The notes beneath the pieces are model-generated. The model did not search any database, was not told the DNA's origin, and saw nothing but the letters and a program-made list of their open reading frames with translations. The position numbers and the translations under genes are program-made. DNA of 53,957 nt from Gammaproteobacteria bacterium (GTDB taxonomy: Bacteria; Pseudomonadota; Gammaproteobacteria; Pseudomonadales; Pseudohongiellaceae): the NCBI GenBank assembly GCA_030654835.1, contig JAURWS010000038.1, forward strand, positions 1 to 53,957. The letters run 5' to 3'. This document shows, in pieces, positions 3,557 to 51,044 of this stretch. The number at the start of each line of letters is the position of its first letter. Within the stretch, counting starts at the first letter, position 1.

Positions 3557-3563
3557 GTTCTAA

Positions 3564-7163: not shown

Positions 7164-7172
7164 GTAACAACG

Positions 7173-8371: not shown

Positions 8372-8372
8372 C

Positions 8373-26108: not shown

Positions 26109-27632
26109 TTAGATGGATTGAAAACGTAGTTTGGTCTGCATCAGCAAAGCTGTACGCACACGGGGTGCGGATACGGCAGCCGCCACTAGAGTAATCGCAC
26201 TAGCGAGAAATAGCCAAATTAGCTGTGAGAGAGTAGATTCAGCGTCGGGCATCGCCCATGCGCTGACGTATGCGACGGTTAGGGCCGCAACCAATGGCCA
26301 TAACAAGTCTTGCACGTACCAACGCCATTTTTCCTGAGTCAAAATTCTACGATACATGAATTGTGTACTAATTAAGACATAACCAGCATTCAAGCTAATC
26401 CAGACCCATGCAGCACCTTCTGCGCCGTAGCGAGGAGTAGCCCATAGTATCGCAGGCACGATTACCGCAACAGAAACTGCATTAGTGCACGTAGCCAACT
26501 TTGTCCAACCGTGAGCGAGTTGGGTTTGATATGGAATCCAATTTAGACAGTTAAGCAAATTCCCGAAGGCTAGCAAGCTAAGCAACTTCGCGCTGCGCTG
26601 GGCAAGCGCGACATCTTGTGTCCAAAGCCGCAGGACCATCTCAGAATATACAATTAATATAATCGCGGCGCTCCCCATCAATACCGAAACCAATTGCGCG
26701 CCTTGGTGAAATGTGTCGATCAATGCACTCTCTTGCTGACTGGCGTGCAGCTCGCTAAGACGCGGCGACCACGCTTGTGTAATCGGGCCAGTCAGTATAT
26801 ATAGCGCACCTGCTACTATCGTGGCTAACGTGTAATACCCGTACTCGCTCAAGGTTAAAATTTTAGACAATATAATTTTATCGACTTGCGTGAGTAACAA
26901 AGCCAAGAAAGTAATACCCATTACTCCTCCAGCGAAACGTCCGATGCCACGAAGAGCTGACATCGAGAAGCGACCGGGGCGATCCGTTTCGGGTAGGTAG
27001 CGGTATGTGGCCCAAACAAATATGCCAAGGGATAGCAGTGAAACTATACCTTGCCAGATAAAAAAAGCTTCTATAGTAGGGGAGACCCAAATCAAAATGC
27101 CTGCCGCACCGAATCCGCGTGTGGTAGCTAGAATGCTGTTGATGATGTTGTACTGCACCTGTCGCTGTAGACCTACAACACAGCTACTGTAAACGCCCTC
27201 AACAAACCGCATCGCAGTGACAGCCCCCATCATGGCGAAAGCTCGAGCAACTATATTTACGGGTAGTTCTTCAGAGCGCAGCCAATCGCTTGCCAACCAG
27301 CCGGACGCAGCCCATATCCCCAGTCCTATCGACACTGAGATGCCAATGGCAATAATCTCGATACTACGCAGTAAATCACGAATACTATTGGCACTGTGCA
27401 CGCCTCCTGTAAATCGCGCCATTTCGCGGTTTAGCGTGGGTTTCATACCCATGTCTAGCAAGACTAACCAAGCTTGTAGCACTGCGAACAAGCCGATCAA
27501 ACCATAGGCTTCTATTCCTAGAAACCTGATATACAAAGGAATGAAAGCTAAGCTCATTAGGGCGACCCAAGCTTGGCCAATGTAGTTAGCTATAAGATTC
27601 CGTTTGAGGTCCGTCTGCTTACTACCCGACAC
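26109..27632 (-). CDS. wzx: Oligosaccharide repeat-unit flippase Wzx
   Basis: This is a 507-residue protein with 12-14 membrane segments and the N-terminal pattern NYIGQAWVALMSLAFIPLYIRFLGIEAYGLIGLF of the polysaccharide transporter superfamily (F-L-G-x-E-x-Y-G-L). It flips the undecaprenyl-linked unit to the periplasm. Its start overlaps the CmcI-like gene by 11 bases, so the two are translated together. Confidence 0.9.
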   Translation of the reverse strand: MSGSKQTDLKRNLIANYIGQAWVALMSLAFIPLYIRFLGIEAYGLIGLFAVLQAWLVLLDMGMKPTLNREMARFTGGVHSANSIRDLLRSIEIIAIGISVSIGLGIWAASGWLASDWLRSEELPVNIVARAFAMMGAVTAMRFVEGVYSSCVVGLQRQVQYNIINSILATTRGFGAAGILIWVSPTIEAFFIWQGIVSLLSLGIFVWATYRYLPETDRPGRFSMSALRGIGRFAGGVMGITFLALLLTQVDKIILSKILTLSEYGYYTLATIVAGALYILTGPITQAWSPRLSELHASQQESALIDTFHQGAQLVSVLMGSAAIILIVYSEMVLRLWTQDVALAQRSAKLLSLLAFGNLLNCLNWIPYQTQLAHGWTKLATCTNAVSVAVIVPAILWATPRYGAEGAAWVWISLNAGYVLISTQFMYRRILTQEKWRWYVQDLLWPLVAALTVAYVSAWAMPDAESTLSQLIWLFLASAITLVAAAVSAPRVRTALLMQTKLRFQSI

Positions 27633-28401
27633 GCTTCAAGTACCCGTCAGGTGCAACGGTTATGAGAAGTTTGTGCTGAATACACTTATCGATTTCAAAC
27701 TCTGGGTGGCTCTGGAGATACTTCCAGACGGCAGTCTTGGGATTGTCACCCGGCCCCCAAGGACGATCAATTGAGAGCTCAGCAGGCATTTCCTCGATAA
27801 TCGTGTCAAAAACAACACAGTAACTTCCAGTTGTAACCAAAGGAGCGTAAGCCTCTAGCTCGGCGAGAACATGACCATGCGTATGGTTAGAGTCTAAACT
27901 AACAAGAATGCGCTTATAGTTTTTCGCGATATTCTTTACCTGAGATACAGTATCAGGAGCAGTACTAGAGCCCTGAATCATTTGAATCCAGTTGCTCATA
28001 GGATGCTGTTCTATTGCAAGACGGTTATGATCTCGAATATCGATGTCGAGACCAATTACCTTTCTCTTGGTTTGTTTGGGATCGCAAGAAACACCTGCCT
28101 CAACCGCGTCACACATATCCAGCATCGCCATAAGCGAGGCGTAATAGATGAGCGAACCGCCATGTGCAATACCCGATTCGATAATTAGGTCCGGCTTGAC
28201 CCGCCATATAAGCTCTTGCATCGCCCATGCATCATTTGGAAACTGAATTGCGGGGCGATCCATCCACCTGAAGTTGTAGGACCATTTATGGCGAGCGACT
28301 TCTTGAGTCCAGTTGCGCGAGAGAGCCTGAAGCTCATAATCAGCCCCCAGGCCTTTGATGTTTTCTTCTACTTCTTGTGCAAATTGTTCAATAGCATTCA
28401 T
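27622..28401 (-). CDS. CmcI-like methyltransferase (cephalosporin hydroxylase family)
   Basis: From the ATG at 28401 (AGGA nine bases upstream) the protein has 259 residues. The SAM-binding core reads DLIIESGIAHGGSLIYYAS, with VIGLDIDIRDHNR and the metal-site segment ILVSLDSNHTHGHVLAELEA, then CVVFDTIIEEMP. The family was named for CmcI, but most members, such as mycobacterial rhamnosyl O-methyltransferase, methylate sugars. It is likely to O-methylate a sugar of this polysaccharide. It overlaps wzx by 11 bases. Confidence 0.85.
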   Translation of the reverse strand: MNAIEQFAQEVEENIKGLGADYELQALSRNWTQEVARHKWSYNFRWMDRPAIQFPNDAWAMQELIWRVKPDLIIESGIAHGGSLIYYASLMAMLDMCDAVEAGVSCDPKQTKRKVIGLDIDIRDHNRLAIEQHPMSNWIQMIQGSSTAPDTVSQVKNIAKNYKRILVSLDSNHTHGHVLAELEAYAPLVTTGSYCVVFDTIIEEMPAELSIDRPWGPGDNPKTAVWKYLQSHPEFEIDKCIQHKLLITVAPDGYLKRVG

Positions 28402-28472
28402 TGTGCTGGTCCTATGAAAATCGATGTATTGCATTACTAAAGACAGTTGGGTCGGCTACGCAAATGACCACT

Positions 28473-29135
28473 TCATTGACTGTTGCGATCAAGTACAAGA
28501 TTAAAACAATAGCGCGCATCAGGACTATCTGTACCTTCTGCGCCAATTTTCCACTGAGTTTCATTATCCTTGACTACACTGATCAAAGGATGACGTGACC
28601 AGCCATTAAAGCCAATCTGTTTATTCATCATAATTGAGGCAACATTATCCGCCATCACATAGGCGTGTATGCGCTGCACGCCAGTCTCACGGAAGAGCCA
28701 TTCAACTAGTGCCATGCCGGCAAACACCATAAGCTTGGGGTGTCCCAGACGATCGCCTCGCATTGCGTTATCGAGCAACACATCATCCTTCGCAAGGTCT
28801 TTGAATCCGAAGTGCCCTACAACTTGATCATTCACATATATCATCAGAAGCATTTGTCCAGGAGTCTTAAACAAGACATTCTTCATCCAATTTCGCGTGC
28901 GCTCCGGTGTTGCCAAAAAATGAGTGAGGAAATTACCCATGTTTTGGTTGCGCCAATCCGTAAGCTTTTGAATGAGCTCAGGTTGATCCAAGTGATCTGT
29001 GGTTAGTGGTCTCATGAATCCCACTTCCAGCCCTTTCTCATCATTGATGCCTAGCGTTAGATGCTCGCTTCCAGCAATTATTCTATCGATAAGTAGTTGA
29101 ATAGAGTTCTTCATTTGTATAATAAGAGTGGTCAC
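28473..29135 (-). CDS. GNAT-family acyltransferase
   Basis: This 220-residue protein has GNAT features: LLMIYVNDQVVGHFGFKDL as central strands, LMVFAGMALVEWLFRE and the terminal RIHAYVMADNVASIMMNKQI with N-x-x-S-I-x-M-x-x-x-x-G-F. It starts four bases inside the end of the hydrolase gene. Placed directly after the ACP/LuxCE/ThDP/NeuB module and in the same operon as a DegT aminotransferase, it is the best candidate for attaching an acyl group to an amino sugar. The substrate and acyl donor (CoA or ACP) are not known. Confidence 0.85.
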   Translation of the reverse strand: MTTLIIQMKNSIQLLIDRIIAGSEHLTLGINDEKGLEVGFMRPLTTDHLDQPELIQKLTDWRNQNMGNFLTHFLATPERTRNWMKNVLFKTPGQMLLMIYVNDQVVGHFGFKDLAKDDVLLDNAMRGDRLGHPKLMVFAGMALVEWLFRETGVQRIHAYVMADNVASIMMNKQIGFNGWSRHPLISVVKDNETQWKIGAEGTDSPDARYCFNLVLDRNSQ

Positions 29136-29842
29136 GCATTTTGAGTTATAAGTGTTTTAAGCCCTACTGGATTATCAAGCATAGGGAAATGCCCGGATTG
29201 GTTAAGTTCGGCCACTTCAACAGAGTGACTTTCTAAAAATGACAGACCCGATTCGCTCAACCTACTACGCGCACCTGTTATATAAATAATTGGGAAGCAA
29301 ACTGAATTTAGTGCGTCGGATATGACCTGCGACCGCACTCTCTGCACCAAATTGTAAGCCATAATTCGTAACGCCTCACCGGCTACGGATTTGAAACCGT
29401 TGCTCCATAAAATAATGTCTTGCTCGTTATGTTTATGAACTAATTGTGACTTCAAAGTCATTTTGGCAACAGACCTGAAGCGTGAAAGCCAGCTGGCGAA
29501 TTGAACCTCATCTAATAACGTTAATTCTGAAGTCCAAACTGCATCATCACGATGTACAATGCCTTCGATTAAAATTACCTTGTTAGGTTGCACACTGCTC
29601 GCAACGATTTCTGGCAAGAGGGCGGCGGAGAATGAGTGAAGCACAAGTGTCGTATCTTCCCATTGATCGCGCCTCACTCGGTCAGAAATTGAATTCCAAA
29701 TACCTTGCCAGTCGTAAACTGTCAGAGTTGAACACCCGTGACCAGGCAGATCGATCGCAACTACTTCATCGTTTAATAGTGGTGCTAATCTGCTCCATAT
29801 CACGGAAGAAAGACCCAGCCCATGTACGAGGACATATCTCAT
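29132..29842 (-). CDS. Alpha/beta hydrolase
   Basis: This is a 236-residue protein: VLVHGLGLSSVIWSRL as the oxyanion-hole region, AIDLPGHGCS, the nucleophile elbow LVLHSFSAALLP with Ser in H-S-F-S-A (the last Gly of G-x-S-x-G replaced by Ala), and QSGHFPMLDNP carrying the catalytic His. It could be a thioesterase releasing an acyl group from the ACP at 33185, or an esterase. It lies between the NeuB-like gene (17 bases) and the GNAT gene (overlap), so it is part of the same coupled set. Confidence 0.82.
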   Translation of the reverse strand: MRYVLVHGLGLSSVIWSRLAPLLNDEVVAIDLPGHGCSTLTVYDWQGIWNSISDRVRRDQWEDTTLVLHSFSAALLPEIVASSVQPNKVILIEGIVHRDDAVWTSELTLLDEVQFASWLSRFRSVAKMTLKSQLVHKHNEQDIILWSNGFKSVAGEALRIMAYNLVQRVRSQVISDALNSVCFPIIYITGARSRLSESGLSFLESHSVEVAELNQSGHFPMLDNPVGLKTLITQNA

Positions 29843-29859
29843 TGTGTTGCTTGTTTTAA

Positions 29860-30891
29860 TTACGATAAATCTTGCGGTTGAATAATTGAGCCAGCATCAA
29901 TGTGCCTTTTGACTGTGCGACCTATGTGGGTTTTGAACTTCGATGGTTGTATCCCTGTGGCAGGCCGTTTGAATTCAATGCAATCTTCGCTTAATGCTTC
30001 ACCAGGCTTCAGATCGATTTTTGCCACCATGCTGCGACGCATTTTTGGAATCTGCGCTTTCTCATCATCACCGAGTATACGACTGCATCCACCCAAGGCT
30101 TCATAAACGCGGTGGCAGGCCTTTACCATGGCTTGCATTTCTTCTGGTTCTGTTGCCATCTGGTTGTCCATGCCTATTCGCAAACAATCCAACGTAAAGT
30201 GTTTTTCGATTATGCATGCACCCAACGCAACGGATGCTGCGGGTATCTCTAAACCTTGACTGTGATCCGAATAGCCGATTGGGAAGCTAGGAAACTCGCT
30301 TCTTAATCCCACAATATTCTGTAGGCGAATAATTTCAGGCGATGCGGGGTAAACGGAAGTACAATGCAAAATAATCAATTGATCATTTCCAGTTGATTGA
30401 ATCGTTTCAACTGCCTCAATGATTTCTTCAAATGTACCCATGCCTGTAGAAAGTACAAGAGGCACTCCCAACTGCCCGAGCTGCGTCAGGTAGGGCAAAT
30501 TATTGAGCTCCATTGATGCGATCTTTACAAATGGGACATTGCACTCAGTAACAAGAAATTTTGCCTCTTCAATCGAGTATGGAGTTGAAGAAAAGTCAAT
30601 CCCTTGCTCCTCAGAATAAAGTGACAACTCTTTAAGCTGCGCTCTATCCAAAGCAAATTTATTAACAATTCGTTTAGCAATCGTGTTCTCTTTATAATAG
30701 CTTTCACAGTATAAAGTTTCAGCACTCCAAGATTGGAATTTGACGCAGTCGCATCCCACCGCTCGCGCCTTATCTATCATGTCTCTCGCTATATCCATAT
30801 TGCCAAAATGACTAGTGTTCAATTCAGCTACTATGTAGGGCTTTAGATAATCGCCCACGCGACGACCATTTCGAAAAGTGACAACTGACAT
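29860..30891 (-). CDS. N-acetylneuraminate synthase-family (NeuB-like) PEP-condensing enzyme
   Basis: This 343-residue protein has a TIM barrel with YIVAELNTSHFGNMDIARDM, CDCVKFQSW, FSSTPYSIEEAKFL, VPFVKIASMELNNLPYL, LVLSTGMGTFEEI, HCTSVYPA and GYSDHSQGLEIP, then EKHFTLD and a C-terminal SAF domain from about residue 285 (RRSMVAKIDLKPGEAL). Family members condense PEP with an aldose to make nonulosonic acids. The usual IGINHNG is replaced by LNTSHFG, so the substrate may differ. No CMP-sialate synthetase, UDP-sugar hydrolysing epimerase or sialyltransferase is in the window, and its direct neighbours are a ThDP enzyme and acyl-handling genes. The exact reaction is open. Confidence 0.85.
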   Translation of the reverse strand: MSVVTFRNGRRVGDYLKPYIVAELNTSHFGNMDIARDMIDKARAVGCDCVKFQSWSAETLYCESYYKENTIAKRIVNKFALDRAQLKELSLYSEEQGIDFSSTPYSIEEAKFLVTECNVPFVKIASMELNNLPYLTQLGQLGVPLVLSTGMGTFEEIIEAVETIQSTGNDQLIILHCTSVYPASPEIIRLQNIVGLRSEFPSFPIGYSDHSQGLEIPAASVALGACIIEKHFTLDCLRIGMDNQMATEPEEMQAMVKACHRVYEALGGCSRILGDDEKAQIPKMRRSMVAKIDLKPGEALSEDCIEFKRPATGIQPSKFKTHIGRTVKRHIDAGSIIQPQDLS

Positions 30892-30899
30892 AATGTCCC

Positions 30900-32690
30900 C
30901 TATTGATCTATGGGTTCAACGACCATTTCTTGCAAGAAAAGCTCGCGAGGAAGGAAAGGTTCTTGATCCTCTAACGGGCGACGTAAAAATCGTTTATCAA
31001 TTGTGCTACGCGCGTGACTGATTTCAATGTAGCTTTGGTCTGGCTTGCCCATAATTTCGCAAAGTACAGCTTTTTCATTTGCAAACATTGTAAGTAGACC
31101 TGAATCAAGCTCATTCACACCATCAATTCGGAGATAATGTAAACCGAAACATTCGGCCACTTTTGCAAAATCGGGGCAACTTACACCATTATCCGGGTCG
31201 GTACCAATAGTTCTTTTGCGAAACAAATCTCGCTGTCGGCGCCTGATAATGGAGTATACGTTGTTATTAATTACGATGATCTTTATAGGCAACTTTTGGT
31301 AACGAATACTTTCCAACTCTTGTAAGTTCATCATGATTGACCCATCGCCAATTACTGCAAGTACAGTGTGAGGCGTTGCATGCTGGGCTCCAATCGCCGC
31401 TGGTAGAGCAAAGCCCATCGCTCCTTGAGACACGGGATGTATGCAGTTAATGCCTTCAGAAAAGCGGATATTCGACGGAAGAATTACTTCGACTAATCCA
31501 GAGTCCGTGACTAATGTAGACGGCCTCGGGAGGAGCACGCTTAGCCGATCGGCTAGTTGATAGAGGTCAACAAAATTTTCAGATTGAAACTCGGGTTCTA
31601 CATTACCGAACAACTGCTTCCAACGTTTACACTTTTCGACCCAACTTGGGTCTGATAGCTTAGCTTTACGGAGATTTAGTTTTTCTAAAAAATAAGCGAG
31701 GTCACTTTCGATGAATTGATCGATCGAGACTGAGTTCTTGCTATGTTCAATAGGGTCTATATCTACTACTTTGACTATTGCTTCACGAGCAAACTTACAG
31801 AAATCAGGGCCTGTGGTAAGCGAGGTAAGCCTTGACCCAAGCACCAACACAAAGTCGGAGTTCTGTATAGCGAAATTCCCAGCACGAGAACATCCCATTG
31901 CACCGACTGAACCTATTGAAAGTAAAGCCGCTGATCCATAAGTGTCGGGTGCGGAGGCTGTGTAGGTAAGTGGCAATTGCCAGCGTTCAACAAAATCCTT
32001 TAGCTTATCCTCTGCACCTGCGGAGCGCACCCCACGACCTATCAGAACGACTGGTCGTTGAGCAGCCTGCAATGATCTGAAAATTTGATCGATTTCGTCA
32101 TCACTCGCAGTAGCCATAATAGAATGGCGCGACAGATCTAGAGCAGGGATAGCTGCTGACTCTATCAGTGAACTTTGCAAATCCAGTGGAATATCAAGCC
32201 AAACTGGTCCTTTACGCCCAGATAGTGCCGCATGTAATGCAAGATCCATTGCCTCGACGATCTCTTCCGGCTTGGTAATCATTCGTGCGAACTTAGTAAT
32301 CGGGGCAACCAGCGCTACTATGTCTGCTTCCTGCTGCCCGTATGTACGCAGCGGTAAACCCGTAAAGCGGCTGGTTTCACGCAAGATATTTTGGCCGGAG
32401 ATAAAAATGCAAGGCACACCGTCTTGCCACGCGGATAGAACTCCTGTCAGGGTATTGGTTGCAGCACACCCTGTGGACACTAAGCATGCACCAATGCCTC
32501 CAGTCTGCTCGGCATAACTTACCGCAGCAAAAGCGCAGGATTGCTCGTGGTGCAATGAGACCGCATGTAGCGTCGAGTTCTTTGCAAGCGCATCACTCAG
32601 AAATAGCGCGCCACGTCCCGTGACTTGAAATACGTTCCTAACACCCACTTGGACGAGGCGCTGCATTATATAGTCAGCTACACGCATCAT
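30900..32690 (-). CDS. ThDP-dependent enzyme, acetolactate-synthase-like
   Basis: This 596-residue protein has the three-domain layout of the POX/AHAS family. The catalytic Glu49 sits in SLHHEQSCAFAA, the middle domain has RPVVLIGRGVRSAG, and the cofactor motif GDGSIMMNLQELESIR ends in IIVINNN. Such enzymes decarboxylate a 2-keto acid and may ligate the fragment to a carbonyl. YerE, which builds the branched sugar yersiniose from a CDP-keto sugar and pyruvate, belongs to this superfamily and is one precedent. It lies 8 bases before the NeuB-like gene and 4 after the dehydratase. No FAD- or quinone-binding feature stands out. Confidence 0.85.
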   Translation of the reverse strand: MMRVADYIMQRLVQVGVRNVFQVTGRGALFLSDALAKNSTLHAVSLHHEQSCAFAAVSYAEQTGGIGACLVSTGCAATNTLTGVLSAWQDGVPCIFISGQNILRETSRFTGLPLRTYGQQEADIVALVAPITKFARMITKPEEIVEAMDLALHAALSGRKGPVWLDIPLDLQSSLIESAAIPALDLSRHSIMATASDDEIDQIFRSLQAAQRPVVLIGRGVRSAGAEDKLKDFVERWQLPLTYTASAPDTYGSAALLSIGSVGAMGCSRAGNFAIQNSDFVLVLGSRLTSLTTGPDFCKFAREAIVKVVDIDPIEHSKNSVSIDQFIESDLAYFLEKLNLRKAKLSDPSWVEKCKRWKQLFGNVEPEFQSENFVDLYQLADRLSVLLPRPSTLVTDSGLVEVILPSNIRFSEGINCIHPVSQGAMGFALPAAIGAQHATPHTVLAVIGDGSIMMNLQELESIRYQKLPIKIIVINNNVYSIIRRRQRDLFRKRTIGTDPDNGVSCPDFAKVAECFGLHYLRIDGVNELDSGLLTMFANEKAVLCEIMGKPDQSYIEISHARSTIDKRFLRRPLEDQEPFLPRELFLQEMVVEPIDQ

Positions 32691-32694
32691 TTTA

Positions 32695-33180
32695 TTAGAC
32701 GCTCTTAGTTCTTGGTTTGAATTGATCCAATATTGCCGGCACAGCTACGACAAACTCTGCGCTACATGCAGACTCGCCGTCAACGAAGCTTATAGCAGAA
32801 CCAATAGCAATTCCGCGCTTAAATGATTTCAAACTCGCCTCTATACGTAACACATCACCCGGAACTATTTTTCGCTTGTACCTAATATTGTCAATTGAAA
32901 CAAAGTTAGTTTTCATTCCTGCATACTCTTCTTTACACAAGAAGGTCAGGATGAAAGTCTGCACTAGACTTTCAATAAGCACGAATCCCGGAACATTGGG
33001 CTCATCGTCAAAATGCCCAGGGAAAAACCACTCGTTATAAGTGAAACACTTGATTCCAGTGGCACGCTCGCCAGGGACTAAATCAACAATTTTATCGATC
33101 AATAATACTGGATACCGGTTACGCTGGTGCTTAATGATGGCCTTGATATCAAGTATCGTTTGGGTAGGTGCGTTGGTCAT
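32695..33180 (-). CDS. FabZ-like hotdog dehydratase
   Basis: This 161-residue protein has the FabZ active-site layout: FFPGHFDDEPNVPGFVLIES with His56 and Glu70 both present, although the spacing insert DD differs from HFPGxPxMPG. It probably dehydrates a 3-hydroxyacyl group on the adjacent ACP, or is a related isomerase or thioesterase. It ends 4 bases before the ThDP gene and starts 4 bases after the ACP gene, so it acts with them. Housekeeping fabZ genes lie with lpxA/lpxD; this one is clearly separate. Confidence 0.83.
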   Translation of the reverse strand: MTNAPTQTILDIKAIIKHQRNRYPVLLIDKIVDLVPGERATGIKCFTYNEWFFPGHFDDEPNVPGFVLIESLVQTFILTFLCKEEYAGMKTNFVSIDNIRYKRKIVPGDVLRIEASLKSFKRGIAIGSAISFVDGESACSAEFVVAVPAILDQFKPRTKSV

Positions 33181-33184
33181 AATC

Positions 33185-33424
33185 TCAGCTCATGGAAATA
33201 TTGTATTTAGCAAGAATACTTTGCCCGACCTCAAAACTGGAAAATTCAATAATATCGTCAATATCAAGCTCCACATTAAACCTCTCCTCCAAGGTTGCCA
33301 TCAAAGCCATATGACCAACACTATCCCAAGCTTCGATATCTTGGTACTTCAAATCAGACAAATCACTGTCTTGAACCATGAAGGTCTCTTTAAATGCGTC
33401 TACGTATTTTTCTAGGTTGCTCAT
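33185..33424 (-). CDS. Acyl carrier protein
   Basis: From the ATG at 33424 this is a 79-residue acidic protein with the phosphopantetheine site DIEAWDSVGHMALM, Ser35. The C-terminal helix has EERFNVELDIDDIIEFSS. I prefer this start to the upstream ATG at 33493, which would overlap luxC and add residues before the first helix. It carries acyl intermediates for the ligase, dehydratase and reductase encoded around it. A dedicated ACP inside an O-antigen operon indicates synthesis of a special acyl or polyketide-like group. Confidence 0.9.
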   Translation of the reverse strand: MSNLEKYVDAFKETFMVQDSDLSDLKYQDIEAWDSVGHMALMATLEERFNVELDIDDIIEFSSFEVGQSILAKYNISMS

Positions 33425-33449
33425 GATACCCTCATAAAAATTACTTGGT

Positions 33450-34658
33450 TTATTGCTCTGAAATAATCCGTGATAGCGTGCCAATAATGTCATAGCCGTC
33501 CCAAATTACCCCAATGTCAAGTGCCTTGCCTACTGGCACAACGCGATCTACTCCGTTTACTCCGGCTTCAATGATGCTGTCTATAATTGATTGGGGGCTA
33601 ACTCCAAAACATGTCACCGTCTGAAAGCGATCGTCTACAATCGACTTCAATCCCTCAAGGTCGTTGTCTATCGCTTCAAAGAAGAATCCATGTTGCCCCC
33701 TGTAATTCTCAATCTTTTCGGGCAATGACTCTAGGCGAACTCTATAAATATAGTTTTGTTGCCTTGATATCGAAGTGCAACCTTTCAATCGTATCGCAAC
33801 GCTACAAAGATGACTGTATTTGTCTACCGCGTGTATCGCAGGTGGCACAAACTTCGTAGAAAGTAGATGCTCCATAGCGGGCCAAAAACGCGACATAGCA
33901 TTGTCTACATCCTCTCTACTTCCCTGCCAAATGACAAGATGAGGAGATGAGCATGCATTTTGATCCAGCAGAAAAACGTCATTATAAAACCCAGATACCA
34001 AATTATCGATTGCTTGTTCATCTGCTGCGTTGATAGCTTCGGCACCCAGAATACACAACGAGTACCGATCAGGAAAACATATGTCTATACACCGAGGGGA
34101 GGTAATCATAGAGCGCAAGTGATTGATTGTGACATCACCTCCCCAAAGAACCCGAGCATGACATAACCGGGACAATTCCGCCGTTATCTCATGCTCTCGT
34201 GGATATTTAATCACCCTCGTCATTGCCGCTATGCGAGTATGCTTAGGGTCCCTAAATAAATCAGAAATCTCCCCACAAATTATGGTCGCCTGAGGGTGAT
34301 TTGACTCTGAGATACGGACAATATTGGCGTTACCAGCCAAAATGCCAAAAGCCAAGGAGAACGCAAAATTAACCGGAACGTTAGCTGGCGCGATGTGCAG
34401 CACGAGTCCACGACCAATTCGACGAGTTTGAGTATCAAAGCTACGAGACAGGCGAGTCAGGTTTGAGCGACGGCACCAGTAAGCAAAAGCAGCCACATCT
34501 GGATATAATCGGATACTTGGATTGGCAAATAAACGGATTGACAGAGCGCCCAAAAAACTGATTGCTTCGGAGGAGTAAGGGGTCAACGGCTGACTAACCA
34601 TCTCCGGCAGCTGGCTACCAACAATAACTTCCACAGACAAATCAGGTACGCGTTTCAT
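33450..34658 (-). CDS. LuxC-like acyl-CoA/acyl-protein reductase
   Basis: This 402-residue protein is of the LuxC (aldehyde dehydrogenase-fold) type: GLVLHIAPANVPVNFAFSL, GNANIVRISESNHP, VLWGGDVTINHLRSM, DICFPDRYSLCI and the active-site stretch LLDQNACSSPHLVIW with nucleophile Cys236. LuxC reduces an acyl group, delivered as thioester by LuxE, to an aldehyde with NADPH. Here no luxAB luciferase is present. The gene overlaps the LuxE-like gene by 17 bases and is followed by ACP. Its likely role is to release an ACP-bound or LuxE-bound acyl chain as aldehyde for a later carbon-carbon bond-forming step. Confidence 0.88.
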   Translation of the reverse strand: MKRVPDLSVEVIVGSQLPEMVSQPLTPYSSEAISFLGALSIRLFANPSIRLYPDVAAFAYWCRRSNLTRLSRSFDTQTRRIGRGLVLHIAPANVPVNFAFSLAFGILAGNANIVRISESNHPQATIICGEISDLFRDPKHTRIAAMTRVIKYPREHEITAELSRLCHARVLWGGDVTINHLRSMITSPRCIDICFPDRYSLCILGAEAINAADEQAIDNLVSGFYNDVFLLDQNACSSPHLVIWQGSREDVDNAMSRFWPAMEHLLSTKFVPPAIHAVDKYSHLCSVAIRLKGCTSISRQQNYIYRVRLESLPEKIENYRGQHGFFFEAIDNDLEGLKSIVDDRFQTVTCFGVSPQSIIDSIIEAGVNGVDRVVPVGKALDIGVIWDGYDIIGTLSRIISEQ

Positions 34659-35730
34659 AGGTATCGCTGCAGCCACGCATCTCGGCTTTCTCCAGTCGGC
34701 CAATTACTCGGAAATACTTTCCTAATCTCTGGCACCGACAATCATCCACTCCAAGCAGCACCCCTAAATCTTCTGTAAGCAGCGCGTGTCCCGGGTAACT
34801 GCAGGGGAGCAAGGATAGTACTTCGATGATGCCTTCTTCGCCGACCTCAGCGATCCCAAAGTCAATTGGCCGACGAAAAATAACATCTGCATAGATCGGC
34901 GCGTGTAAATGCCCAAATTCACATTCAACAAACAAAGAGCCTGTTTGCTCAACCATGCCATAGTAATTGACGACTTTATTTACATTTGCAACGGACTTAA
35001 GTGCATGACGAAAAGCATCGTTATCAACAGATTGTTCTTGTAACTTTTTCCACCCCCCTCCATGGACAACAATCCCTTTATCTAAGGGTAAATGAATGCC
35101 TTTTTTTTGCAACGACAACACAAAATGCTGCCAAATCACGAAAGTAAAACCGAAAATGAAAACTGGACTCCCATGATGGCGCGCCAAGAATGCCTCTATT
35201 GCCGGCATATCAAGTGACATTGAGTCATCGAGCGCATAAGTAACATTTAACCCAAACATCGAAAACCCAAGTATCCCGGCACCACGCGCTGAAAAGGCTT
35301 GACGATTTTTCAAGATACTCGGCGAGTCAATAATTAGCATGGGCAGCCGTTTCTTGCCCAACACATCTGACATCAAGCGTGATAATACTTTGGTTTGTAG
35401 AGCTGCGGTCTTACGATCGAGATAGATTTTTGAAACTTGTTGTCCGCTTGTACCGGACGAAGTCATTATTTTGAAAACCTCATCTGATTCGATACTAAGC
35501 AGATCGAATTCTTTAAACAACCGCACTGGAATAAAAGGGATATCTTCAAGACAGTTAACTGATCCTGTATTCTCTACCAAAACATTCAATATTTTTTGAT
35601 AACTCTCACATTGAACTGAATGCCATTTCGTTAATTCAACCAGTGCTTTTGTCAACTTATGTGATTTAACGTCAGCGCTGAAAGCATAAGGGTTGAATTC
35701 AAGCCAGTCAGAAAAATCAGGTGCATTCAT
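34642..35730 (-). CDS. LuxE-like acyl-protein synthetase
   Basis: This 362-residue adenylate-forming protein has TSSGTSGQ (90-97), VVHGGGWKKLQ, VVNYYGMVEQTGSLFVECE and the C-terminal RLEKAEMRGCSD, in which Cys354 matches the acyl-accepting cysteine of LuxE. LuxE activates a fatty acid with ATP and hands it to LuxC. It overlaps the ligase gene by four bases and the LuxC-like gene by 17 bases, so these three proteins are made together. The acid it uses cannot be read from the sequence. Confidence 0.88.
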   Translation of the reverse strand: MNAPDFSDWLEFNPYAFSADVKSHKLTKALVELTKWHSVQCESYQKILNVLVENTGSVNCLEDIPFIPVRLFKEFDLLSIESDEVFKIMTSSGTSGQQVSKIYLDRKTAALQTKVLSRLMSDVLGKKRLPMLIIDSPSILKNRQAFSARGAGILGFSMFGLNVTYALDDSMSLDMPAIEAFLARHHGSPVFIFGFTFVIWQHFVLSLQKKGIHLPLDKGIVVHGGGWKKLQEQSVDNDAFRHALKSVANVNKVVNYYGMVEQTGSLFVECEFGHLHAPIYADVIFRRPIDFGIAEVGEEGIIEVLSLLPCSYPGHALLTEDLGVLLGVDDCRCQRLGKYFRVIGRLEKAEMRGCSDTYETRT

Positions 35731-37169
35731 GTTAACAATATTCCTAACTGTGACTGTAACTCACTATACTGAATCTTGCCTGAGTCACTGCGAGGAAATT
35801 CCGTAACGCCGTAGACTGATACAGCTGACTGCGCGATGTGTAGACTCCCAACCACCAACTTCTTTACCAACTTCGCTTTTTCTGCATCGATGTTTAGAGC
35901 GTAGACTTCAAGATAATTATCTTGACCAGCACATGCCGCGACATAACCAGACTCAAATAGAAGTCCATCTATATCAGAGAGGCTTACACGATTACCATAA
36001 AGCTTGATAAATCGTTTACGCCGACCAACGATAAAATAATAGCCATCGCCGTCGCGCCGCGCTATGTCACCCGTCCGCAACACTCCGTGCCTTTCATCTG
36101 ATTTTTCCAAGTCTTCATAACTATCAGCATAACCCATTGACACATTTGGCCCTTGATACACTAATTCTCCAGGAGAATCAGCGCAGTCGAAGATCTGCCC
36201 AGACTTATCTTCAAGCCAAAATTTCCCACCAGGTATAGCGATTCCGATACTACCTGCTTTGAAAGTAGCCTCACTGCTAGGCAAATAGGACATCCTCGCA
36301 GTTGCCTCAGTTTGCCCGTACATAGAAAAAAAACGCCTCCCACTGCTCTCACAATAACTGGCATACTCCATAGTTAACTTAGTATCCATACCTCCACCCG
36401 CTTGGGTCAATGTTCGTAGACTTGGGAGATTCATGCTTGTGAAACGTAATTTTTTTAACATCTCATAGTGGTAGGGAACCCCACCCATACTAGTCGCTTG
36501 TATGTCATGGAAAAAATTCCAAAAATCCCTATCAAAAAAAGTTTTATTTGTTATAGCTAGTGTTGCACCAACGAAAATATGGCTGTGAATAATTGACAAC
36601 CCGTAGCTATAACTGGGTGGCAAAGTTGTGATAGGAACTTCGTTTGATGTTAACTCGAGAAATTTGGCAATCGATTCAGCATTAGAGTACAGGTTCCGAT
36701 GGGAAAGTCTCACATACTTTGGGTTGCCAGTGCTTCCAGAAGTAGCTAACAATAAAGCTAAAGAGTCGTGACAACGTCTCTCAGGATTATGAAGATTTAA
36801 CAAACAGTATCCATCTTGAGACAGCATGCAGTCAGCTCTCTCAAACTCCTTTCTTCTAGCCTCTGGTAACCAAATAAAATGTGGTCTGTATGAACTCGCA
36901 AGATGATGTAATTTTTCTGTTGAAATAGTTACGGCAACCATCATCGGTACAGCGTTTGCGACCAGCAGAGCGAAATATCCAGAAAGAGCACTAATTTCAT
37001 TTTCGACTATACAAAATACCAACTGTCTATTAGTCGCAGTAAAAGGAGGCTTGATTGCTTTTTGATAGACGTCCAAATAAGTCAGCAATTCTCCCTTCGC
37101 ATTCACGCACAAATTTTTGGCTTTATGCTTAACGAAGTAGTTTGCAATACTAGTGGAGTCGTCCTTCAT
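35727..37169 (-). CDS. AMP-dependent acyl ligase
   Basis: This 480-residue member of the ANL superfamily carries LLATSGSTGNPK (140-151), FSMYGQTEATARMSYL, RTGDIARRDGDGYYFIVGR and the C-terminal FPRSDSGKIQYSEL with the catalytic Lys. It is short for an acyl-CoA synthetase and looks like an acyl-ACP ligase or D-alanine-ligase-like enzyme. It presumably loads the dedicated ACP. It is coupled to the LuxE-like gene by a four-base overlap, giving two adenylating enzymes in one module, one for entry (ligase) and one for exit (LuxE). Confidence 0.87.
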   Translation of the reverse strand: MKDDSTSIANYFVKHKAKNLCVNAKGELLTYLDVYQKAIKPPFTATNRQLVFCIVENEISALSGYFALLVANAVPMMVAVTISTEKLHHLASSYRPHFIWLPEARRKEFERADCMLSQDGYCLLNLHNPERRCHDSLALLLATSGSTGNPKYVRLSHRNLYSNAESIAKFLELTSNEVPITTLPPSYSYGLSIIHSHIFVGATLAITNKTFFDRDFWNFFHDIQATSMGGVPYHYEMLKKLRFTSMNLPSLRTLTQAGGGMDTKLTMEYASYCESSGRRFFSMYGQTEATARMSYLPSSEATFKAGSIGIAIPGGKFWLEDKSGQIFDCADSPGELVYQGPNVSMGYADSYEDLEKSDERHGVLRTGDIARRDGDGYYFIVGRRKRFIKLYGNRVSLSDIDGLLFESGYVAACAGQDNYLEVYALNIDAEKAKLVKKLVVGSLHIAQSAVSVYGVTEFPRSDSGKIQYSELQSQLGILLT

Positions 37170-37224: not shown

Positions 37225-38331
37225 TTACCTATAGAGTTTTTTGATTACACCCGTAACGCGTTCTATATCTTCATCACTTATTTCATGATAGCTGGGCAAA
37301 TTAATTGATCTCTTAGGAATTGACCAAGCGTTGACATTTGACTCGACTGAAGAAAACATGTCTAGATCAGATAGCGGCCAAAAGAAGACTCTTGCATCTA
37401 TGTTATCTGCTGAAAATGCCATCTGAAGTTTTTCTCTACTTATGTTTGCATCCAAATCAAAAACCACAGTTGGCATCCAAGCGCCATTAACTATTCCCTC
37501 AGACTCTGGGTTCATACTGACAGATGATATTTGCGTCAATTGTTTTCGATATTTAGCAAAAACTTCACGCTTCCTGCTTACAAGCTCATCAATGCGCTCC
37601 ATCTGAGCACAACCAATAGCTGCCTGAATATTTGACATTTTGTATTTGAATCCCACCATATCTGGCCAAAACTGTTTTGTTTGTCCTCGGGAACGACCAT
37701 GATTACTCAACGTCAAGACATTTTCGTAGAGTTCCGCGTCGTTAGTGACAAAGATACCACCTTCGCCGGTGGTTAAAGTTTTTGTGCCATGAAATGAGAA
37801 TGTACCAAACTTTCCCATGGAGCCAGCGCGCTTGCCGTGATATACGGAGCCTATGGCTTCAGCAGCGTCCTCAATTACTGGAATGCCATACTTTTGGCCA
37901 ATAACAAGCAGGCGATCCATCTCGCACAGATTTCCGTAAAGATGGACGGCCACGATTGCCTTGGTCTTGGGCGTGATCGCAGCCTCAACCTGTATTGGGT
38001 CCAAACACCAAGAATCCTCAAGGATATCGACGAAGATTGGTTTGGCGCCTAAGTGTACGATTGGTGAAGCGGTCGCAATCCAGTTGGTATCTGCCATGAT
38101 GACTTCGTCACCGGGGCCTATACCTAAAGCAGCCATGCCCATATGAAGCGCACCGGTGCAGCTGGAGGTAGCAATAGCATATTTCACCCCAAGGTGTTGC
38201 TTGAAGGCGGCTTCGAAACGATTTATATAGTCGTAACACCTATCACCCCAACCATTTTTTGCAGCATCAGTGGCGTAGCTGACTTCAAGGTCGGTTATAG
38301 ATGGTTTTGTGTAGTAAATACGGTTGCTCAT
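37225..38331 (-). CDS. DegT/DnrJ/EryC1/StrS sugar aminotransferase
   Basis: From the ATG at 38331 the protein has 368 residues: NRIYYTKPSITDLEVSYA, SSCTGALHMGMAALGIG, Asp155 in EDAAEAIGS and the PLP Lys184 in SFHGTKTLTTGEGG. The Lys shows it is a transaminase, not the CDP-sugar 3-dehydrase ColD/DdhC type that has His there. It is similar in form to perosamine or 4-amino-4,6-dideoxyhexose synthases. It lies between the C-methyltransferase and the acyl ligase, so it may aminate a CDP-4-keto-6-deoxyhexose at C4, with the acyl module then decorating the amine. Confidence 0.88.
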   Translation of the reverse strand: MSNRIYYTKPSITDLEVSYATDAAKNGWGDRCYDYINRFEAAFKQHLGVKYAIATSSCTGALHMGMAALGIGPGDEVIMADTNWIATASPIVHLGAKPIFVDILEDSWCLDPIQVEAAITPKTKAIVAVHLYGNLCEMDRLLVIGQKYGIPVIEDAAEAIGSVYHGKRAGSMGKFGTFSFHGTKTLTTGEGGIFVTNDAELYENVLTLSNHGRSRGQTKQFWPDMVGFKYKMSNIQAAIGCAQMERIDELVSRKREVFAKYRKQLTQISSVSMNPESEGIVNGAWMPTVVFDLDANISREKLQMAFSADNIDARVFFWPLSDLDMFSSVESNVNAWSIPKRSINLPSYHEISDEDIERVTGVIKKLYR

Positions 38332-38370
38332 AAGTTGATACTTTAAAGTCAGTTTCAAAGCAATTTGCGC

Positions 38371-39597
38371 TTATTTGAGAATCGCCATACTCGGAACGGC
38401 TGTTACAAACTGAGTTCCCTGTTTTTCCAAAACTTCATTCTGCTGTTTAACCTCACCGGCGATATTCCACGGCAAGATAAGCACAAAATCCGGAGCGTAT
38501 GTTGCTAATGAATCCGGCGGCAAAATTGGAATATGACTGCCCGGCATATATTTACCTTGTTTGGCTGACGCCGCATCGCACACAAATGGTAGCAAATCAG
38601 GTTTAACACCGGCGTAATTCAATAAAGTGTTGCCCTTAGCTGCTGCACCGTAAGCGGCAACTTTTTTGCCAGAGCGCTTTTGCTCGATTAGAAAGCTTAG
38701 CAAATCATCCTTAACCTTATCGGCTCTCGCTTGAAAGCTTTGATAGATGCTCAATTTTTGCAGTCCACGCTGATTTTCTTCAGCCAGCAATGCTGCCACC
38801 GCTGGCGTGCTGATACGGCTATCCTCAGCATGACAACCATAAATTCGTAAGCTCCCCCCGTGCGTAATCAACTGCTCCACATCCCAAACTCGCAAGCCTG
38901 CAGCTTTGAAAATGATATTTACGGTGTAAAGCGAGAGGTAGGAAAAGTGCTCGTGGTAAACGGTGTCAAACTGAGTTTGCTCGATCATTCGCATAAGGTG
39001 AGGGAATTCAAGTGTGATCGTGCCACATGGCTTTAATGCAGCTTTAAGGCCCCTGGAAAAGTCATTGATGTCGGGAACATGAGCAAAGACATTGTTGCCG
39101 ATAATCAGGTCAGCCTGCCGTTGAGCCGCAGCCAGATGCTTCCCCAGAGTCTCGCCAAAGAATTCGCGTAGCACCGGTATACCTAGCTTTTCTGCAGCAG
39201 CGGCAGTGCTGGCGGTGGGCTCAATACCCAAGCAAGGGATACCCGCCGCAACGAAGTTTTTCAATAGGTAGCCGTCATTGGATGCTACTTCAACTACATG
39301 GCTGCGGGCGCTAAGTTGTAGTCGCAAAATCATGGCCTCGACAAAACTTGCTGCATGCGCCAGCCAGCCGCTTGAGGTGCTGGAAAAGTAAGCATAGTCA
39401 GGACTGAAAAGTTCGTCAGCCTCTGCGTAATCTTCTGTCTGCGCAAGCCAACAGTGTGTGCAGATTTTGACTTTCAGTGGATAGTACTTTTCCGGCTTGC
39501 TCAGGTCCGCCTGGTTCAAGTATGCATTAGACGGCGGCGCAAATCCGAGATCAAGAAAAGTGTACTGCAATGGTTCTGAGCAATGACGACAGTTCAA
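38371..39597 (-). CDS. Sugar C-methyltransferase (TylC3/NovU type)
   Basis: This is a 408-residue three-part protein. The N-terminal zinc domain has Cys3, Cys6, Cys46 and Cys49 (MNCRHC ... ICTHCW). The SAM core has VVEVASNDGYLLKNF and TITLEFPHL followed by QFDTVYHEHFSYLS. The C-terminal domain has VAAYGAAAKGNTLLNY. This architecture is that of nucleotide-sugar C-methyltransferases acting next to a 4-keto group (for example TylC3, NovU). The HEHFSY motif carries catalytic-type residues. It overlaps the RmlC-like gene by four bases, so the substrate is probably the CDP-4-keto-6-deoxyhexose made by RfbG. The expected product has a methyl branch at C3 or C5. Confidence 0.88.
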   Translation of the reverse strand: MNCRHCSEPLQYTFLDLGFAPPSNAYLNQADLSKPEKYYPLKVKICTHCWLAQTEDYAEADELFSPDYAYFSSTSSGWLAHAASFVEAMILRLQLSARSHVVEVASNDGYLLKNFVAAGIPCLGIEPTASTAAAAEKLGIPVLREFFGETLGKHLAAAQRQADLIIGNNVFAHVPDINDFSRGLKAALKPCGTITLEFPHLMRMIEQTQFDTVYHEHFSYLSLYTVNIIFKAAGLRVWDVEQLITHGGSLRIYGCHAEDSRISTPAVAALLAEENQRGLQKLSIYQSFQARADKVKDDLLSFLIEQKRSGKKVAAYGAAAKGNTLLNYAGVKPDLLPFVCDAASAKQGKYMPGSHIPILPPDSLATYAPDFVLILPWNIAGEVKQQNEVLEKQGTQFVTAVPSMAILK

Positions 39598-40154
39598 ACT
39601 TCTACTCCATTAAAGGTCGTAGTTACATGAGGATGCAGGGCATCTCTGGCTGAAAGTTCGGTAATATTCAGTGGCCACTGAATTACAAGACGCGGGTCTT
39701 GGGCATTTAACCCGGCTTCCGCACCCGGGCTATGAGCAGAGCTATGGCAATACAACAGCGTCACATTATTGCTCAGCGTTTGGAAGCCGTGAGCGAAGCC
39801 CTCGGGTATGAATAACGCGCGGTGGTTGTCGGCAGTAAGCAACTCGGCGTGCCACTTCAAAAAAGTAGGTGAACCTCTGCGCAGGTCGACGGCAACGTCC
39901 CAAATTTCGCCTTGAATGCAGGTTACTAACTTCATTTCGGCATGGGGAGAATGCTGGTAATGCAAGCCACGTACGGTACCGCGCAGGGCCGTGAAAGTGT
40001 GGTTGATCTGGGCAATCGGTTTGTACCAACCGGCAGCAGAGAGTTCTTGTGCACAAAAAATTCGCGAAAAAAAACCACGACTATCACCCAATTGTTGCCG
40101 CTCAACGAGTTTCAGACCAGCTAATGGCAGGTCGGTGATGGTAAACCGGCTCAT
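39594..40154 (-). CDS. RmlC-like 3,5-epimerase of the CDP-sugar branch
   Basis: This 186-residue cupin matches dTDP-4-dehydrorhamnose 3,5-epimerases: GDSRGFFSRIFCAQEL, QINHTFTALRGTVRGLHYQ and FIPEGFAHGFQTLSNN. Neighbours on both sides overlap by four bases and belong to a CDP-glucose pathway, so it likely epimerises the CDP-4-keto-6-deoxyhexose at C3 and/or C5, before or with C-methylation. It is not next to the distant rmlA at 49 kb. Confidence 0.85.
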   Translation of the reverse strand: MSRFTITDLPLAGLKLVERQQLGDSRGFFSRIFCAQELSAAGWYKPIAQINHTFTALRGTVRGLHYQHSPHAEMKLVTCIQGEIWDVAVDLRRGSPTFLKWHAELLTADNHRALFIPEGFAHGFQTLSNNVTLLYCHSSAHSPGAEAGLNAQDPRLVIQWPLNITELSARDALHPHVTTTFNGVEV

Positions 40155-41209
40155 TGCAGTGTCTCATAAACAGTGATTTCGGCTTCACATAATCTGCGAG
40201 CATCTGCGCCATGCTGCTGATCTCGATACCAAGTCATAGTACGCATGATGGTCTCTGCCAAATTCCATTTAGACCCAAAGCTAAGTATCTCACGTACTTT
40301 TGCCGTTTCCAGTGACAGCAAACCCGCTTCATGAGGACCAGTGTTTACCTCACCAAAAGCGATCTGTCCCTGACCAAAGGCGGTCCGGGCCAGTTCAATC
40401 ACTTCGCGCACGGTAGCGGCTTCGTTAGAGGGCGGGCCGAAGTTGTAGGCACCCGCCAACTCGGGTTGATTCCATAGTTTTTCAGCGAGATTGAGATAAC
40501 CAAACAACGGTTCCAGTACATGCTGCCATGGCCTGATGGCTTGCGGTCGGCGGATTTCAAGCGTAGAAGCAGTTTGCCAGGCACGTACAGCATCGGGAAT
40601 CAAACGATCTTCTGACCAATCGCCGCCACCAATGACATTGCCGGCACGAGCGCTAGCTATCGCGATTCCTTGTTGCTTGAGGAATGCATCGCGATAACTT
40701 GCAATAACAATTTCACTGGCTGCTTTGCTGGCACTATACGGGTCATAACCACCCAATGCATCGGTTTCCCGATATGGGTAGCCCCATTCGTTATTGGAAT
40801 AAACTTTGTCTGTAGTCACCATTACTGCGACTCTGGTGTTATCCATTCCACGTAATGCATCTAACACATGGGCAGTGCCCATAACGTTGGTGGCATAAGT
40901 GGTTATTGGGTCTCGATAGCTGGCGCGTACCAATGGCTGTGCGGCCAAATGAAAGACGATGTCTGGATGTGATTGGCGAATAATTTTAACGAGCGCTGCA
41001 TCGTTACGAACATCACAGAAGTGGCTATCCATGCTTTTCGCGAGATCGGCCAGTTCAAACAAACTGGGGTTAGTCGCAGGTGCTAAGGATATACCAGTAA
41101 CTTGTGCACCGAGCCGCTGCAGCCATAGGGTAAGCCAGCTTCCTTTAAACCCTGTATGGCCTGTAAGAAGAACGCGTTTACCACGCCAGAAGTCCTTCGT
41201 TTCGGTCAC
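40151..41209 (-). CDS. rfbG: CDP-glucose 4,6-dehydratase
   Basis: This is a 352-residue SDR from a GTG at 41209 that overlaps the rfbF stop as GTGA; an upstream GTG at 41224 is less likely. Motifs are [55 protein letters not shown] and the catalytic YSASKAASE. The VYxNxEWxYPYRE segment is diagnostic for CDP-glucose dehydratases. It forms CDP-4-keto-6-deoxyglucose. Confidence 0.94.
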
Positions 41210-41979: not shown

Positions 41980-42042
41980 AACTGGACCTCGCAGTAACCA
42001 CCGTATACGGCAACAAAGCATCTGACAAACTTATTCATATAA

Positions 42043-49980: not shown

Positions 49981-50045
49981 TGTGGGAGCGAGCCTGCTCG
50001 CGATGGTTTTGTGGTAATTCAATCGCGGGCGGGCCCGCTCCCACA
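49981..50045. repeat. REP/BIME-like inverted pair
   Basis: Arms TGTGGGAGCGAGCCTGCTCG and CGGGCGGGCCCGCTCCCACA. The loop with GGTAATTCAATCGCG is shared with the element at 52586-52650. It lies upstream of rmlA and marks the right border of the polysaccharide locus. Confidence 0.88.
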
Positions 50046-50160
50046 TCTTGTGCTATATGTTAAGTGTCATATTTAATCGGGACCGGCACCAGCTTTACTA
50101 TTCGATGCAGAGTAAAGCTGTCGGTTGCCACGCCAAATTCACGAAGTAAGGGAGTCAATG

Positions 50161-50998: not shown

Positions 50999-51044
50999 GT
51001 GAGAAACGGTAAACCCACGGGGTTGGAATGGTCTTGGGCATTAT

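Follow-up and report, generated by a model that had tools for sequence, protein, structure and literature searches.

Introduction

LuxE- and LuxC-type proteins have been found near the genes for several bacterial surface glycans. In Vibrio cholerae O1, perosamine is N-acylated with tetronate, and RfbL is described as putatively loading RfbK or CoA. The tetronate genes (rfbKLMNO / wbe, VC0248-VC0252) combine an acyl carrier protein (ACP), an AMP-forming ligase and LuxE/LuxC near an aminosugar path. The same combination is present in the stretch of DNA analysed here (the window), which comprises 53,957 nucleotides (positions 1 to 53,957) of contig JAURWS010000038.1 from a gammaproteobacterium of the Pseudohongiellaceae, order Pseudomonadales (assembly GCA_030654835.1). 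Nine of its genes, at 28473-37169, encode in addition a YerE-like carboligase dependent on thiamine diphosphate (ThDP) and a NeuB-type enzyme that condenses phosphoenolpyruvate (PEP). With a probability of about 0.4, we propose that they specify a two-module pathway, with no ketosynthase in the set, whose product is an unusual acyl substituent for the aminosugar of an O-antigen.

In V. cholerae, where RfbN is presumably the LuxE/LuxC-type protein, reduction of the aldehyde would fall to an alcohol dehydrogenase; in the window the position of this dehydrogenase is taken by the ThDP enzyme and NeuB. A set resembling the V. cholerae tetronate genes occurs in another genome of the window's order (L019:12374-17405), with an ACP, an AMP ligase, a gene similar to iron alcohol dehydrogenases and a LuxE-matching protein of 826 amino acids (aa), which is probably LuxE fused to LuxC because it is longer than LuxE alone.

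Glycosylation islands in the flagellar regions of Aeromonas, Enterobacteriaceae and Dickeya contain genes for ACP, AMP synthetase, LuxE, LuxC and FabG, accompanied in Dickeya by tktA/tktB, and the only role given to them in the available text is 'fatty acid synthesis / liposugar' (PMC7874193, PMC4875605, PMC7575072). They differ from the window in their flagellar location and in the presence of FabG or transketolase, and the NeuB-ThDP pair is not among the genes reported in that text. Between the aminotransferase (DegT) and methyltransferase (CmcI) genes that flank the nine genes of the window there is no FabG gene, and no flagellin-like gene was noticed by eye in the window's list of open reading frames (ORFs). 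The sfmABCDE operon of Shewanella oneidensis (SO_3261-SO_3265) is required for a flagellin glycan; sfmA-D encode NeuB, a thiamine pyrophosphate (TPP) enzyme, a FabG-like protein and a methyltransferase, and the glycan includes a moiety of 236-264 Da whose structure is unsolved and which is thought to be nitrogen-free (PMC3765264). By this description the operon shares its NeuB-domain and TPP enzyme genes with the window and, unlike the window, is without LuxE, LuxC and ACP. The mass of 236 Da corresponds to C9H16O7, which fits a reduced C4 semialdehyde plus a C5 unit and equally a deoxynonose, and it is not used as evidence here.

With the YerE/ErwE/JanthE systems of yersiniose and erwiniose, the window shares a YerE-like ThDP enzyme, a CDP-glucose cytidylyltransferase and a 4,6-dehydratase. 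The 3-deoxygenation that yields a CDP-3,6-dideoxy-4-keto sugar requires RfbH; the YerE and ErwE systems need this enzyme, whereas the set in the window is without it. This CDP-3,6-dideoxy-4-keto sugar is given as the substrate of YerE and ErwE (PMC12247030). Precedents for parts of the window's set are thus provided by V. cholerae O1 tetronate, the flagellar islands, Shewanella sfm and erwiniose. A sequence-only reading of this stretch knew of no described pathway with this gene set; large parts have in fact been published, although the complete set is absent from the literature searched, in which no description of a LuxE-ThDP-NeuB combination was found and from which most subscription papers were missing. 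That reading also noted an absence of luciferase genes, for which no dedicated search was made.

The nine genes and their conserved residues

The nine ORFs are intact, consecutive and all on the minus strand, and they are packed as tightly as the sequence-only reading had described: from the AMP ligase to the GNAT gene the intergenic distances range from -17 to +22 bases, or reach +25 between LuxC and ACP if the ACP begins at its ATG. They encode an AMP-forming acyl ligase (35727..37169; Pfam AMP-binding, 129.8 bits), a LuxE-like acyl-protein synthetase (34642..35730; Pfam LuxE, 188.6 bits; PDB 7xc6_E, 9e-15), a LuxC-like acyl reductase (33450..34658; Pfam LuxC, 94.3 bits), an ACP (33185..33424; Pfam PP-binding, 21.2 bits, barely over the cut-off of 20.8), a FabZ-like dehydratase (32695..33180; Pfam FabA-like; NCBIfam PRK00006, 122.1 bits with a cut-off of 113, and TIGR01750, 113.4 bits with a cut-off of 155), a YerE-like ThDP carboligase with a GDG motif and three Pfam TPP-enzyme domains (30900..32690), a NeuB-type PEP-condensing enzyme (29860..30891; Pfam NeuB, 245.6 bits, plus SAF), an alpha/beta hydrolase that may be a thioesterase (29132..29842; Pfam Abhydrolase_6) and a GNAT acyltransferase (28473..29135; Pfam Acetyltransf_3, 38.5 bits). 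Pfam finds neither a ketosynthase nor an iron alcohol dehydrogenase among the nine.

Pfam thus bears out the gene identities proposed earlier, and the catalytic residues named with them are conserved in homologues. LuxE Cys354 is a cysteine in 93 of 94 aligned rows, and LuxC Cys251 (Cys236 when counted from the ATG at residue 16) in all 88 ungapped rows of 90. In rows from ThDP-bearing loci, FabZ His56 is kept in 15/16 and Glu70 in 16/16; Glu49 of the ThDP enzyme is present in all 17 ungapped rows of 18, and the ACP carries a DS motif at Ser35. For NeuB, 10 of the 12 columns checked are identical over 18 rows (17 from cassettes and one other), the remaining two being E/D (11:7) and S/T (17:1), and the roles of these residues in binding PEP and metal are our assumption.

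The AlphaFold model of LuxC (pLDDT 90) has Photobacterium LuxC (7xc6_A) as its top fold match, with a TM score of 0.71 normalized to the query length at 17% identity, and the NeuB model (pLDDT 91.5) matches NeuB and PseI folds. As orthologues of the long-chain bioluminescence proteins, LuxC and LuxE fall short by NCBIfam (41 bits with a cut-off of 750 and 69 bits with a cut-off of 550, respectively). Among solved structures the best match of the ThDP enzyme is JanthE (8rph, 362 bits, the next one having 220). An ordinary acetolactate synthase was considered for this gene and rejected, since JanthE is the closest solved match and all 25 NCBIfam matches listed, out of 54, are under their cut-offs. 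A comparison with JanthE Tyr297/Lys567, where the window has Pro/Ile by eye, was dropped because these columns vary within the clade.

Recurrence of the gene set

LuxE homologues were found in 10 of the 293 genomes of the window's order, the window genome included. Contigs were scanned with a LuxE alignment, which confirmed at least 549 relatives, and the best 80 loci were mapped; the alignment was seeded from the window's order, so that locus counts are no census. Genes were labelled by homology, with profile models that were derived first from the window proteins and then also from Pfam-identified proteins. Among these best 80 loci the order AMP-LuxE-LuxC-ACP-FabZ-ThDP-NeuB-GNAT recurs in four other species, namely Rhizobium esperanzae (L024), Chromobacterium haemolyticum (L025), C. 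aquaticum (L026) and Novosphingobium (L027). The homologues are 65-71% (ThDP), 64-70% (NeuB) and 45-62% (GNAT) identical to the window proteins, and GNAT directly follows NeuB in all four. Genes for a C-methyltransferase-like protein (CMT) and an epimerase are present in each of the four stretches, RfbF and RfbG in L024-L026, and DegT and CmcI in L025-L027. The locus nearest by LuxE (L023) is a contig of 3.9 kb on which only AMP-LuxE-LuxC is visible. A looser core of LuxE, LuxC, ACP and ligase is spread across phyla. No match to the ThDP protein was obtained from plasmids at 1e-120.

Whether the nine genes travel together was the test named in the sequence-only reading. Eight of them do. When the ORFs of the window and of L013-L102 were searched with phmmer (1e-5), only the window's own ORF was labelled as the alpha/beta hydrolase. 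The nine-gene set minus the hydrolase is a recurrent cassette.

Exchange of the aldolase and of the ThDP module

The NeuB of the window is 48-70% identical to 16 cassette homologues and at most 36.5% identical to the other NeuB proteins fetched, so that the cassette clade is sharply separate by identity, with moderate support in the tree (0.87). Fifteen of the 17 cassette-type NeuB genes share a locus with a ThDP gene. Conversely, in the 81 loci formed by the window and the 80 mapped ones, an aldolase-type gene accompanies the YerE-like ThDP gene in all 18 cases: cassette NeuB in 15, DmpF plus DmpG in two and a weak DmpG-like protein in one. In L049 and L091 the ThDP neighbours of about 300 and 350 aa, taken before the scan for acetaldehyde dehydrogenase and 4-hydroxy-2-oxovalerate aldolase on account of their size, were identified by Pfam as DmpF and DmpG. 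The three of these four proteins that were scanned against NCBIfam (both DmpG and the DmpF of L049) all exceed the equivalog cut-offs. In the third case (L082) the gene encodes an HMGL-like protein that matches 4-hydroxy-2-oxovalerate aldolase (DmpG) best in NCBIfam, under the cut-off (87 of 229 bits).

The NeuB of the window is probably not a sialic acid synthase, to judge from its scores under both equivalog cut-offs (299.3 of 399.65 bits for NeuB and 235.4 of 340.25 for PseI). CTP_transf_3, the CMP-synthetase partner, has no match on the window contig (C14). In C. aquaticum the family is represented by KdsB alone and in Novosphingobium by GlmU alone, although both genomes, whose completeness is not stated, carry the cassette NeuB; the NeuB product is therefore probably not CMP-activated there. 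The window genome does have a separate locus, on contig C48, where two further NeuB genes stand with two CTP_transf_3 genes, and other cassette genomes contain extra CTP_transf_3 matches.

A second exchange concerns the ThDP enzyme itself. A transketolase pair, consisting of split N and C halves (Pfam-checked in L055), lies within 10 kb of LuxE in 30 of the 81 loci and a YerE-like ThDP gene in 18; no locus has both and 33 have neither. Restricting the count to the 53 loci that extend 8 kb or more to either side of LuxE gives 22, 16, 0 and 15, respectively (Fisher p = 3e-5 for exclusion, ignoring relatedness), and cassette NeuB is found in 13 of the 16 ThDP loci versus one of the 37 others. On the LuxE tree of these 53 loci the three states require at least 22 changes. 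ThDP and transketolase are opposite in about 5/7 independent pairs (median p 0.06), and ThDP and cassette NeuB occur together in about 6/7 (median p 0.031, range 0.016-0.22).

YerE-like genes were also found in genomes without a detected LuxE. With the ThDP protein as sole query against 398 genomes of the phylum (E <= 1e-90), 18 YerE-like genes were obtained besides the window, 33-39% identical to it. Eleven of them have an aldolase-type neighbour, adjoining or one gene off: seven directly adjoin a NeuB-like gene, which is 23-27% identical to the window NeuB over partial length, three are separated by one gene from DmpF and DmpG, and one (L149) stands beside a gene that matches HpcH/HpaI weakly (31.2 bits, cut-off 25) and nothing in NCBIfam. 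Proteins of 541-548 aa beside ThDP in L140 and L141 gave no Pfam match at 1e-5; the neighbour scan covered neither the like-sized protein in L144 nor the neighbours in L143 and L151. Of the 18 genomes, some of them only 57-82% complete, 17 yielded no LuxE, and in the eighteenth LuxE lies on another contig, so that the aldolase-ThDP pair seems to exist independently of LuxE. L139, L142, L143 and L152 have a nearby DegT protein with His at the Lys position, that of L142 scoring as RfbH, and resemble classical branched-sugar clusters in this respect; RfbF-, RfbG- and RfbH-like genes are combined with DmpFG in L142 and L152, both LuxE-free.

The NeuB-like proteins beside YerE-like ThDP in L139, L145, L146, L147, L148 and L150 form a group of 500-525 aa, of which the L145 protein, the only one scanned, has a C-terminal cupin domain. 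In the Novosphingobium cassette genome, a second pair about 58 kb off (L114) consists of a NeuB-like gene (24% identical) next to an end-cut ThDP gene.

A proposed two-module pathway

DmpG-type aldolases make 4-hydroxy-2-oxo acids from pyruvate and aldehydes, and a NeuB-type enzyme would form such an acid from PEP and an aldehyde. ErwE, which is YerE-like, prefers 4-hydroxy-2-oxo acids as donors (PMC12247030), and JanthE also takes 4-hydroxy-2-oxovalerate (PMC12247030, PMC12188165). The exchange of NeuB for DmpFG, together with this donor preference of ErwE, makes it the simplest reading that NeuB supplies the donor of the ThDP enzyme. The sequence-only reading had regarded the ThDP enzyme (two carbons from pyruvate) and NeuB (three carbons from PEP) as alternative extenders. 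Both are indeed carbon-carbon bond-forming enzymes, but the exchange of NeuB for DmpFG indicates that they probably act in series.

The substrates and step order given here are our proposal, built on the gene set, its intact residues, its recurrence and the aldolase exchange. In the donor module, the NeuB-type enzyme would form a 4-hydroxy-2-oxo acid by condensation of an aldehyde and PEP, and the YerE/ErwE-like enzyme would decarboxylate this acid to a 3-hydroxyacyl carbanion equivalent. In the acceptor module, LuxE would activate a carboxylic acid of small size, for which malate or another hydroxy acid is plausible, and hand the acyl group from Cys354 to LuxC for reduction to the aldehyde. 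The ThDP enzyme would then couple the 3-hydroxyacyl donor with the LuxC aldehyde, the AMP ligase would load the resulting acid on ACP, FabZ could dehydrate a beta-hydroxy carbonyl, and GNAT would move the chain from ACP to the amine of a CDP-6-deoxy sugar, which would be provided by RfbF, RfbG, the epimerase, the C-methyltransferase and DegT.

As acceptor of the ThDP enzyme, the aldehyde from LuxE/LuxC is the most probable candidate, although this assignment is less certain than the role of NeuB. It is favoured by the retention of LuxE/LuxC in L049 and L091, where DmpF can make the aldehyde that the aldolase uses, by the alternative module being transketolase, whose usual acceptors are aldehydes, and by the aminotransferase in the window, which would consume a 4-ketone. 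As to the acid, a gene similar to malate/lactate dehydrogenases follows shortly after LuxC in six loci, adjoining it in five, and the Arg that we take as a marker of malate dehydrogenase is present in 6/6 of these proteins (one read by eye). Malate semialdehyde would also suit V. cholerae tetronate.

Several observations weigh against this pathway. The acceptor may be a sugar, given that ketones are known as acceptors of YerE-like enzymes and that the window encodes a path to a CDP-4-keto sugar. The conserved residues of NeuB are compatible with a sugar aldehyde as substrate. Of the malate/lactate-type dehydrogenases, the one scanned (L031) is closer to the lactate dehydrogenase cut-off (290 of 304 bits) than to that for malate dehydrogenase (225 of 283), with both scores under cut-off and the lactate score the higher. 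Seven of the 18 YerE-like genes outside the LuxE loci have no recognised aldolase beside them, several of the contigs being cut and the neighbour scans partial, and two of the 17 cassette-type NeuB loci (L080 and L092) show no ThDP gene in the fetched stretch. The association of FabZ with ThDP is significant by Fisher's test (7e-4) but non-significant on the tree (median p 0.125), as is that of FabG with transketolase (5e-4 and median p 1, respectively). Ketosynthases are not excluded everywhere, since genes for 3-ketoacyl-ACP synthase III (KAS III) are near LuxE in 9 of the 81 loci.

L080 and L092 have cassette-type NeuB beside FabG and LuxE/LuxC, a further variant. KAS III, FabG and a second ACP are found beside ThDP in L031, L047, L049 and L061, with NeuB too in L031, L047 and L061 and not in L049.

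Neighbouring genes

Upstream of the nine genes and in the same orientation (minus strand) are genes for RfbF, glucose-1-phosphate cytidylyltransferase (41206..42021; NCBIfam TIGR02623, 472.6 bits, cut-off 300), RfbG, CDP-glucose 4,6-dehydratase (40151..41224; NCBIfam TIGR02622, 483 bits, cut-off 278), an RmlC-like 3,5-epimerase (39594..40154; TIGR01221, 156.0 bits, just at the cut-off of 155.75), the CMT (38371..39597) and a DegT-family sugar aminotransferase (37225..38358; Pfam DegT, 409.6 bits). Homologues of the epimerase and the CMT are those noted above beside the cassette in L024-L027. The product of 38371..39597, presumably a C-methyltransferase, was assigned to no family by NCBIfam at 1e-10. 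RfbH is presumably recognised by a His replacing the Lys that binds pyridoxal phosphate (PLP); the DegT of the window keeps this Lys (SFHGTK) and reaches 177.9 of the 423 bits required by the RfbH model, and it is thus not the 3-dehydrase by this rule. Downstream, also on the minus strand, is a gene for a CmcI/rhamnosyl O-methyltransferase family protein (27622..28434; NCBIfam NF045824, 92.5 bits, under the cut-off of 400), which is part of the set in that its homologue adjoins the cassette in L025, L026 and L027; none was found beside the cassette in L024.

Each end of the window carries REP-like repeats (TGTGGGAGCGGGC...; 168-8849 and 49981-52658), and copies of the listed families are absent from about 8.9 to 49.9 kb, the region of the polysaccharide genes. 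Judged by eye from the translations, XRE-type and HipA-like ORFs at 1007-2544 are likely a toxin-antitoxin pair, and at 51045-52521 a small antitoxin-like ORF accompanies VapC-like and MazF/PemK-like ORFs.

Alternative explanations

A branched sugar might be made instead of an N-acyl chain. NeuB would condense the LuxC aldehyde with PEP to a 4-hydroxy-2-oxo acid, and the ThDP enzyme would add it to the 4-ketone of a CDP-sugar, as ErwE does for erwiniose, giving a C-branched higher sugar. The similarity to JanthE, the presence of rfbF and rfbG in the window and the gene combination of L142 and L152 suit this explanation, as does the use of CDP-ketosugars by YerE-like enzymes (PMC12247030). It is nevertheless unlikely, since the set has no 3-dehydrase, rfbG-labelled genes are found in only 4 of the 16 full LuxE-ThDP loci, L049 and L091 have their own aldehyde source in DmpF, and the ACP, ligase and GNAT are left without explanation.

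The enzymes might also be wired differently, with the LuxC aldehyde passing to NeuB and the ThDP enzyme linking what NeuB makes with another aldehyde from metabolism, again to yield an acyl chain. In the cassette no maker of aldehydes other than LuxC is evident, there being no DmpF-labelled gene in the NeuB loci, whereas LuxC persists next to DmpF in L049/L091 and NeuB-like/ThDP pairs occur in genomes without a found LuxE, although that NeuB-like group is the one with only 23-27% identity. On balance this wiring appears somewhat more doubtful still.

That ACP, FabZ, LuxE and LuxC make a fatty acyl group or aldehyde for a lipid-bearing glycan, as has been proposed for the flagellar islands, is improbable. 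A 'liposugar component' has been suggested there (PMC4875605, PMC7874193), and the KAS III genes near LuxE would agree with it, but the nine genes are without a ketosynthase, LuxC and LuxE score far under the long-chain cut-offs, and the ThDP enzyme with its aldolase, or the transketolase, would be unexplained. It is hardly credible that NeuB makes an ordinary nonulosonic acid unconnected with its neighbours, for all its NeuB fold and mostly conserved key residues, given its separate group, its scores under both equivalog cut-offs and the absence of CTP_transf_3 from the window contig and, beyond KdsB and GlmU, from two cassette genomes. The two-module pathway proposed above is the reading that we prefer, and the sequence-only interpretation as a whole is partly supported.

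Significance

In our estimate it is nearly an even chance that bacteria of several phyla share a system by which chains of surface glycans are built without a ketosynthase for the key bond, a LuxE/LuxC aldehyde being joined to a ThDP-bound acyl group derived interchangeably from a NeuB-type enzyme, DmpFG or transketolase, with a relative of sialic acid synthases serving as a supplier of 4-hydroxy-2-oxo acids to a ThDP carboligase. Where LuxE/LuxC genes lie near those for flagellar glycans, 'fatty acid synthesis' has been the published reading, and the exchanges suggest a shared chemistry of aldehyde and acyl anion instead. Through the aldolase and transketolase exchanges, many loci that lack an explanation would acquire a role that can be tested. 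From the same pattern one would predict the donors of YerE-like enzymes, for most of which the sugar product is still to be identified, and a non-sialic role for a clade of NeuB.

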